Shown here one piece after another: positions 48,809-49,111 of a stretch of DNA of 64,000 nt. How positions within the stretch are numbered: the stretch's first letter is position 1; every line of letters starts with the position of its first letter. Under the pieces are notes generated by a model. The model ran no database searches. It was not told the DNA's origin and saw nothing but the letters and a program-made list of their open reading frames with translations. The position numbers were made by a program, and so were the translations under genes. The DNA comes from Streptomyces aurantiacus. Lineage in GTDB: Bacteria; Actinomycetota; Actinomycetes; Streptomycetales; Streptomycetaceae. The stretch spans positions 3,038,001 through 3,102,000 of the forward strand of contig NZ_CP114283.1 in the NCBI RefSeq assembly GCF_027107535.1, written 5' to 3'.

Positions 48809-48901
48809 ACGCCCCGGCCGTGCCGGACGCGAGGTCCGCTTCTCGGCAGGGCCGCTTTTATTCGCGTGCCCGCGAGCGCCGGGCCCGCTACCGTCGTGGA
48901 C

Positions 48902-48974
48902 GTCCGGGTGCGAAGGCAGCGGCTACTTCTCCTCATAAGAGGGAAACGCGGGTTCGAATCCCGCCTCCGGCGCA
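48902..48974 (+). tRNA. tRNA-like sequence, possibly degenerate, with CAT in the anticodon position
   Basis: The T-arm is perfect: stem GCGGG (48948-48952), loop TTCGAAT, stem CCCGC (48960-48964). Upstream an anticodon-like arm TTCTC / CTCATAA / GAGGG (48927-48943) has 5-7-5 geometry with CAT at positions 34-36, as in tRNA-Met or tRNA-Ile2. A 3' acceptor CTCCGGC and GCA follow. The 5' acceptor GTCCGGG (48902-48908) pairs at 6 of 7 positions, two of them G-U, but the D-arm is poor (GAAG/CTTC would overlap the anticodon stem). It may be a pseudogene, a remnant or half of a rearranged gene. Confidence 0.35.
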
Positions 48975-48975
48975 G

Positions 48976-49006
48976 GCCGGTGTCGTCCAGTGGCCCAGGA
49001 CGCCTC
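48976..49006 (+). other. tRNA 5'-half-like sequence (tRNA-Glu type D-arm)
   Basis: GCCGGTG-TC-GTCC-AGTGGCCCA-GGAC-G has the layout of a tRNA acceptor strand plus a perfect D-arm and closely resembles bacterial tRNA-Glu 5' halves. No T-arm follows downstream. The acceptor strand GCCGGTG pairs with CTCCGGC (48965-48971) of the preceding 3' half at 6 of 7 positions, and CCTC (49003-49006) could pair with GAGG (48939-48942). Confidence 0.45.
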
Positions 49007-49111
49007 GTCGCCGCCGCCGAGTCAGACCTCCGGACATCGAGCACGGGCCGCCCGCCACGGGGGAATCAGGCGGGCGGCTCCGTCATGTTCGCGATCCCCG
49101 GCGGGCGGGCG

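Follow-up and report, generated by a model that had tools for sequence, protein, structure and literature searches.

Why do parts of a tRNA stand in reverse order, the 3' half directly before the 5' half, in a Streptomyces chromosome? In the window, i.e. the whole stretch of 64,000 nucleotides that was analysed, a T arm (48948-48964) runs into CTCCGGC (48965-48971) and GCA (48972-48974), and one base on GCCGGTG (48976-48982) begins, followed by TC and the D arm GTCC...GGAC (48985-49001). These letters, as given in the preliminary description, were confirmed, as was the pairing of the two acceptor strands at 6 of 7 positions, five of them consecutive, with one U-U. The order which it had termed permuted-tRNA-like is real and conserved, but appears to constitute the effector domain of a Y RNA and not a permuted tRNA gene. 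With a probability of roughly 93%, positions 48902-49035 on the forward strand represent, as judged from sequence, a bacterial Y RNA gene, an extra copy dispersed from the rsr locus. Its product is most likely a Y RNA of ~134 nt whose core mimics a whole tRNA, circularly permuted and with the anticodon arm included; a Y RNA is the expected RNA partner of Rsr, the Ro60 orthologue. The predicted parts of the RNA, with the ends 48902 and 49035 inferred from the terminal stem, and of its flanks are:

48857-48894 (+), promoter-like region with a conserved box TTTATTCGCGTGC (48857-48869) and a -10-like TACCGT (48889-48894), 7 nt 5' of the RNA
48902-49035 (+), predicted Y RNA of the four-armed tRNA-mimic type, 134 nt (model R2, 113 bits, E=1.8e-24)
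48902-48907 (+), 5' strand GTCCGG of terminal stem P1, partner CCGGAC at 49030-49035, two-sided changes at 4 of 6 pairs
48915-48923 (+), 5' strand GGCAGCGGC of stem P2, one A.C mismatch, partner GCCGCCGCC at 49010-49018, in the register of RNAalifold on alignment A4
48927-48943 (+), anticodon-like arm TTCTC-CTCATAA-GAGGG, 5 bp, 7-nt loop, triplet CAT
48948-48964 (+), T arm GCGGG-TTCGAAT-CCCGC
48965-48982 (+), acceptor-stem hairpin CTCCGGC, loop GCAG, GCCGGTG, two-sided changes at 6 of 7 pairs in A3 and A4
48983-49002 (+), U8, C9, D arm GTCC-AGTGGCCCA-GGAC and purine 26
49010-49018 (+), 3' strand of stem P2, same RNAalifold register on A4
49030-49035 (+), 3' strand CCGGAC of terminal stem P1
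49047-49078 (+), terminator-like hairpin GCCGCCCGCC-ACGGGGGAATCA-GGCGGGCGGC, without a T run

The 5' stem strand of the RNA reads, from 48902, GTCCGG and then GTGCGAAGGCAGCGGCTAC. A generic sigma-70 promoter scan of the region found nothing, nor did a generic terminator scan, which requires a T run. Lying between the RNA and uppP, which runs towards it, the hairpin at 49047-49078 may terminate transcription from both sides. On the minus strand, the same hairpin gives a weak match to the Rfam 6C RNA (21.2 of 47 bits).

Two covariance models, R1 and R2, with a consensus structure set by hand, were applied to the window. R2, trained on 16 rsr-linked relatives with the window copy and its close kin left out, matches the window copy over its full length at the score given above, a value well outside what chance would give, and this is its only match in the 64 kb at E up to 1. 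R1, trained on 20 relatives, scores the window copy at 126 bits, a value to be read with the window copy being part of the training set. In Rfam, the element remains below threshold as a tRNA (21.9 bits versus 29) and, at 48947-49001, as YrlA (RF02553; 19.3 bits versus a gathering score of 69), so that the RNA is not to be filed as a member of RF02553 but is just of the same kind; the YrlA consensus has the same order of T arm, capped acceptor hairpin and D arm. Also considered and rejected were a Tymovirus-type tRNA-like element (19.5 of 40 bits in Rfam) and a tmRNA, for which ARAGORN makes no call and whose order of parts differs.

The proposed fold is carried by covariation, which is found in all six helices in A3, in A4 and by RNAalifold. 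A3, with 56 sequences fitted to R1, comprises R1 matches at E<=1e-19 only (56 matches from 60 sources), a limit by which three-armed and YrlB-like copies were left out; 99.5% of its cells are paired and two-sided changes occur at 21 of 35 pairs, while none of 500 shuffles scored as high and sliding the structure leaves 30-47% paired. The unfitted A4, a MAFFT alignment of 25 sequences, is 94.7% paired with two-sided changes at 20 of 35 pairs; P2 is just 78.7% paired there in the hand-set register, and RNAalifold gives a better one. Applied to A4 with no structure supplied, RNAalifold returns the same six helices, with two-sided changes at 20 of 37 pairs. A1 (MAFFT, 20 sequences) is 97.6% paired, with two-sided changes at 10 of 35 pairs located in five of the six helices; its D arm is 85% paired and has no two-sided change, probably because MAFFT put two D-arm types out of step. 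P1 is 100% paired in A3 and in A4, and the outer stem consisting of P1 and P2, the kind of stem that carries the Rsr site, shows two-sided changes, with the letters GGTGCG-AGG, TACT and, on the 3' side, CTC invariant or nearly so among the relatives. The window copy itself forms standard pairs at 34 of 35 positions, the exception being the U-U in the acceptor stem. Established for the window RNA are the sequence, a structure supported by covariation, its conservation, co-occurrence with rsr and the rsr linkage of its kin.

The preliminary description had proposed an anticodon stem between GAGG (48939) and CCTC (49003); the letters are present, the pairing is unsupported. GAGGG (48939-48943) instead pairs with TTCTC (48927-48931) around CTCATAA, an arm paired in 25 of 25 sequences of A4, with two-sided changes at three of its five pairs, and at all five positions in 56 of 56 sequences of A3, with exchanges among C-G, U-A and G-C and also among A-U, C-G and U-A. 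Single-sequence folding tells against the fold, the energy of the window RNA being ordinary compared to shuffles (z -0.92 and -1.42). The minimum free energy structure scrambles the acceptor and D arms, both of which the centroid shows, and both predictions shift the anticodon-like hairpin to CCUC-GAGG with a loop AUAA and one bulge in place of the 7-nt loop. This shifted hairpin was rejected, as it is paired in 66.9% of cells over the 25 A4 sequences, no better than shuffles, versus 100% for the tRNA-like form.

ARAGORN calls a tRNA-Met at 48902-48973, and a degenerate tRNA-Met(CAT) followed by the debris of a second tRNA, from a tandem pair or an old integration site, was the second reading offered in the preliminary description. 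Besides agreeing with the call, it can draw on the resemblance of tandem tRNA genes to the module. Genuine tandem tRNAs obtain 45-49 bits from the covariance models, which makes matches below ~50 bits unsafe singly and weak ones no proof; two of three such places, however, match model positions 26 to 104-105 only, and none exceeds 49 bits. Among 24 relatives ARAGORN calls just nine, as five isotypes. Debris predicts unconstrained outer stems, which is contradicted by covariation and by the full-length R2 match; two-sided changes are found in every helix, and the whole unit is kept at unrelated chromosomal sites. In close relatives the locus was found neither absent nor scrambled, the state in which the preliminary description would have regarded it as a remnant. 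Failing on conservation, covariation and order, tRNA debris is thus a most improbable source of the element. It may be added that ARAGORN calls of this sort might inflate tRNA counts in Streptomyces.

Upon reordering of the A3 sequences to acceptor 5', D, 26, anticodon, variable, T and acceptor 3', ARAGORN calls a tRNA in 56 of 56, versus 6 of 56 when the native order is kept and none of 1120 shuffles, and the tRNA-Met call in the window is then an artefact. An ordinary tRNA-Met gene was rejected on the same native-order calls and on the five isotypes among the relatives. The positions of tRNA tertiary contacts are kept, with U8, A14, the D-loop GG, Y48, TTC and A58 in 56 of 56 and R26 in 55 of 56 sequences, and the apical loop starts NCCA-like in 11 of 56. 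All this would suit a permuted tRNA gene that functions like those of red and green algae or Thermofilum, in which a working tRNA is cut from a circularised precursor. Against such a gene, the triplet at the anticodon position takes 16 different forms among the 56 copies and varies even among the window copy and three copies of the same neighbourhood (CAU, CUC, GUC and UGA, one neighbourhood being partly kept), a free variation that leaves no stable decoding identity. Furthermore, the outer stems are likewise conserved, the presence of the element follows rsr, and the known permuted genes listed in a section of PMC3978253 belong to algae and archaea and have other junctions. Production of a working tRNA from this locus is accordingly very hard to believe. 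The variation is confined within a held frame: the loop reads CU-NNN-AA in 49 of 56 copies of A3, with U33 and A38 in 56 of 56, and among 134 scored columns position 34 ranks 9th, position 35 3rd and position 36 22nd in variability.

A stricter automatic test, which 0 of 580 shuffles pass, assigns the four-armed form to 67 of the 116 matches in A2 and to 57 of the 130 viral matches in A6. After reordering, 67 of 67 and 56 of 57 of these four-armed forms, respectively, are called tRNA by ARAGORN; in native order, calls are made for 12 of 116 and 11 of 130 matches. Alignments make the anticodon arm visible in Nonomuraea (L075), in a Gordonia phage (L073) and in the copy at L074 3456-3593 of phage CcrColossus, four-armed by alignment though the automatic test missed its arm. 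The occurrence in Nonomuraea and in phages indicates that the four-armed form is not confined to Streptomyces. A third rsr-linked copy in the own genome (L032 1907-2042) is classed as lacking the anticodon arm, so that this genome appears to hold both types. While a passage on the Salmonella Y RNA in PMC11472068, which treats it as a circular permutation of tRNA, makes the permutation as such already known, the complete covarying cloverleaf including the anticodon arm looks new for Y RNAs; a literature search found no report of a Y RNA anticodon arm, and the earlier main Y RNA papers may show it or Streptomyces members.

If the element is a Y RNA, it should be tied to rsr. The own genome contains one TROVE (Ro60/Rsr domain) match above the family cut-off, in a 534-aa frame, and a DNA search of this genome with the element gave three further copies, all ~0.42 kb or less upstream of the rsr frame. 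Compared with Rfam, these three match YrlA (E=5e-9), YrlA (E=7e-4) and YrlB (E=0.07), all below the gathering scores. The window copy lies ~770 kb from rsr. An RtcB-linked repair operon was rejected, with the one RtcB match (C2:569192) lying 1.7 Mb from rsr and none of the eight scanned rsr-flanking frames being RtcB.

Among 150 congeneric genomes, R1 matches occur in 88 at E<=1e-3 and in 75 with a best E<=1e-7, the value taken as positive, and TROVE in 81. RNA and TROVE are found together in 74 genomes, RNA only in 1, TROVE only in 7 and neither in 68 (Fisher test, p=2.6e-33, with relatedness ignored). The 13 of the 88 genomes with a best E above 1e-7 were scored negative; G082 among them has TROVE and thereby belongs, with G062, G065, G079, G093, G167 and G171, to the genomes with TROVE without a strong Y RNA match. 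These seven possibly possess another TROVE subfamily with a different RNA. The sole RNA-only genome, G149, contains beside the RNA two Rsr-like pieces (query residues 29-150 and 454-518; L088, G149:C2, 3376-3961) which the TROVE search missed, pointing to an rsr that is broken or very divergent.

At the stringent limit of E<=1e-18, 69 copies were found in 60 genomes, 53 of them within 5 kb of TROVE and 16, from 15 genomes, not. Each of the 15 genomes that contain unlinked copies has TROVE at another place (p=5e-5, relatedness ignored); for nine of the 16 copies TROVE is on a different contig, so that a physical distance is undefined, and the flanks fetched for those nine contain no Rsr match. 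In a sample of 296 genomes from the phylum, R1 matches at 1e-6 occur in ten, seven of which belong to the own genus and all have TROVE; the other three are without TROVE, and according to ARAGORN their R1 matches coincide with real tRNA genes. Two TROVE-bearing genomes outside the genus in this sample have no R1 match. Of 417 loci in a scan of named genomes, the 80 retained as best are without exception from Streptomyces and consequently tell nothing about a wider spread. In Nonomuraea gerenzanensis, tandem Y-RNA-like matches (L075 2805-3114 and 3936-4229) are followed by a weak Rsr-like stretch (28.6% identity).

Distance from rsr raises the question whether the window copy derives from the rsr-linked Y RNA by decay and has lost its function. 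Such a pseudogene would also be in line with the U-U mismatch in the acceptor stem and with most unlinked copies residing at differing sites: the thirteen that lie outside the gene neighbourhood of the window copy have <=249 aligned bases in common with any other locus compared. On the other hand, the 34 standard pairs of 35 speak against decay, and the order HxlR, CMD, Y RNA, uppP and Gfo/Idh is complete in two further genomes (L076, L077), placing the RNA at the same site between the CMD and uppP genes. A further locus, L033, keeps ~3 kb of the CMD/uppP neighbourhood. Beside its Y RNA only UppP residues 243-291, the last 49, are encoded (L033 3383-3529), which shows that the conserved uppP neighbour is broken off there. 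The 17 unlinked copies, i.e. the 16 of the linkage count and one plasmid copy, retain structure, promoter-like region and hairpin: TAnnnT stands 6-7 nt 5' of the RNA in 16 of 17 (random rate 0.3%), a loose pattern, devised with the sequences already in view, finds the upstream box in 15 of 17, and a hairpin of at least 8 pairs follows 3' of the RNA in 15 of 17. We consider a pseudogene unlikely. Occurring in 15 of 150 genomes, each with a TROVE match at another place, these units of no more than ~250 bp, which bring along a promoter-like region and a hairpin of their own, suggest that the Y RNA repertoire reaches beyond the rsr locus.

Phages provide an additional view on the association with rsr. 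Window DNA matched 4 of 50,697 phage records, belonging to three phages, Gordonia phage BearBQ, Caulobacter phage CcrColossus (two records) and a Thermus phage, and a Ro-like or TROVE gene is located near the match in both phages looked at, of the three. In BearBQ the match lies ~155 bp 5' of a gene annotated as Ro-like RNA binding protein; in CcrColossus it lies ~0.9 kb 5' of a TROVE-like gene which is preceded by four tandem model matches of 38 to 76 bits. One hundred viral rsr loci, fetched by two Rsr queries and including a few near-identical pairs, gave 130 R1 matches at E<=1e-3, all on the rsr strand and 126 of them upstream. An upstream match is present in 74 of the 100 loci (35/60 and 39/40 per query), the nearest match at a median distance of 105 nt from rsr; 26 of the 100 have no upstream R1 match, with five of the 100 holding <500 nt upstream. 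In CcrColossus (JX100810), an annotated tRNA-Gln (L074 3133-3200) is situated inside one of the four tandem matches (67.3 bits). ARAGORN calls no tRNA at these positions, and the location within a Y-RNA-like match upstream of a TROVE-like gene makes it probably a Y RNA.

Plasmids carry related sequences as well. The 678-kb plasmid NZ_CP109366 of Streptomyces sp. NBC_01558 contains a copy (L072 8002-8135) with 87% identity over 84% of the query, unannotated and with no rsr annotated within 8 kb. Eleven records of Azospirillum plasmids (e.g. NZ_CP022366 483786-483850) show a 65-nt, 82% identical match to a part of the rsr-linked cluster; these matches, at which no feature is annotated, may be Y RNA or tRNA genes.

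How might such an RNA work? We infer its transcription, Rsr binding and an effector partner as follows. Transcribed from a promoter of its own, the RNA would pair its 5' end with its 3' end to form a stem with bulges, and this stem would bind Rsr, a ring protein and the single TROVE match of the genome, as passages of published work describe Rsr binding to the outer stem of Y RNA. Its other end would present a complete permuted tRNA of anticodon, T, acceptor and D arms, with the tRNA chain opened between positions 26 and 27 and a short loop closing the acceptor stem. If Salmonella and Deinococcus are a guide, tRNA-handling proteins would recognise this module, and the RNA would act as a gate on Rsr and link the protein to a partner, for instance PNPase. 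Excerpts of the literature relate that the Deinococcus Y RNA tethers Rsr to PNPase, favouring the decay of structured RNA, and that DusA and TruB modify the YrlA module; in a further excerpt, Salmonella YrlA is not cut by the tRNA-cutting activity studied, with a role as competitive inhibitor offered as one possibility.

With its triplet varying, the complete anticodon arm is more in keeping with a decoy than with a decoder, while a relaxed loop with a triplet without role explains the variability equally well. That the Y RNAs of actinobacteria and phages imitate the whole of a tRNA, with the triplet diversifying in a held CU-NNN-AA frame, and act on whatever reads the anticodon arm, is a tentative and on balance doubtful proposal. 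Should it hold true, the mimic could serve e.g. as a decoy for anticodon nucleases or as their sensor, under stress or in conflict with phages, and Rsr with an exonuclease could dispose of the cut RNA; a part of PMC10264068 reports phage tRNAs that evade tRNA-cutting defences. A full-cloverleaf Y RNA widens the range of proteins possibly deceived to anticodon nucleases, modification enzymes and synthetases, and makes the function of bacterial Y RNA testable in Streptomyces. As to annotation, neither the window copy nor its rsr-linked sisters attain the cut-offs of the Rfam models, and some of these RNAs are wrongly labelled by a tRNA finder as tRNAs of changing isotype.

Among RNAs of bacteria, tmRNA is a non-decoding tRNA mimic. 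Chen et al. are said to have stated in 2014 that at least one Y RNA per species carries a tRNA-like module, and the window RNA carries one, as seen from covariation in A3 and from ARAGORN on reordered sequences. With YrlB (RF02565) a relation is seen through the second rsr-linked copy (L032 1815-1892; E=0.07, below cut-off), which has outer-stem sequence in common with the window copy; in contrast to the window RNA, YrlB is without a tRNA module. The permuted tRNA genes of algae and archaea likewise have the 3' half first and a cloverleaf that is complete on reordering. As listed in a section of PMC3978253, their junctions are 20/21, 37/38, 50/51 and 59/60, whereas the window RNA is permuted at 26/27, enclosed by a long stem, unconserved in its triplet, bacterial and tied to rsr. 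Closest is YrlA (RF02553; e.g. Salmonella YrlA, PDB 6CU1), with which the window RNA has in common an outer stem of the Rsr-binding type, the genomic link to rsr and, as described in a part of PMC11472068, T arm, capped acceptor hairpin and D arm in permuted order, and which two rsr-linked sister copies match in Rfam below the cut-off. In a passage of PMC8394870, YrlA is described as a mimic of the D, T and acceptor arms, and its Rfam consensus is without an anticodon arm. The window RNA, with an arm order otherwise as in YrlA, has such an arm between outer stem and T arm, complete, covarying and with a loop of the U-turn type.
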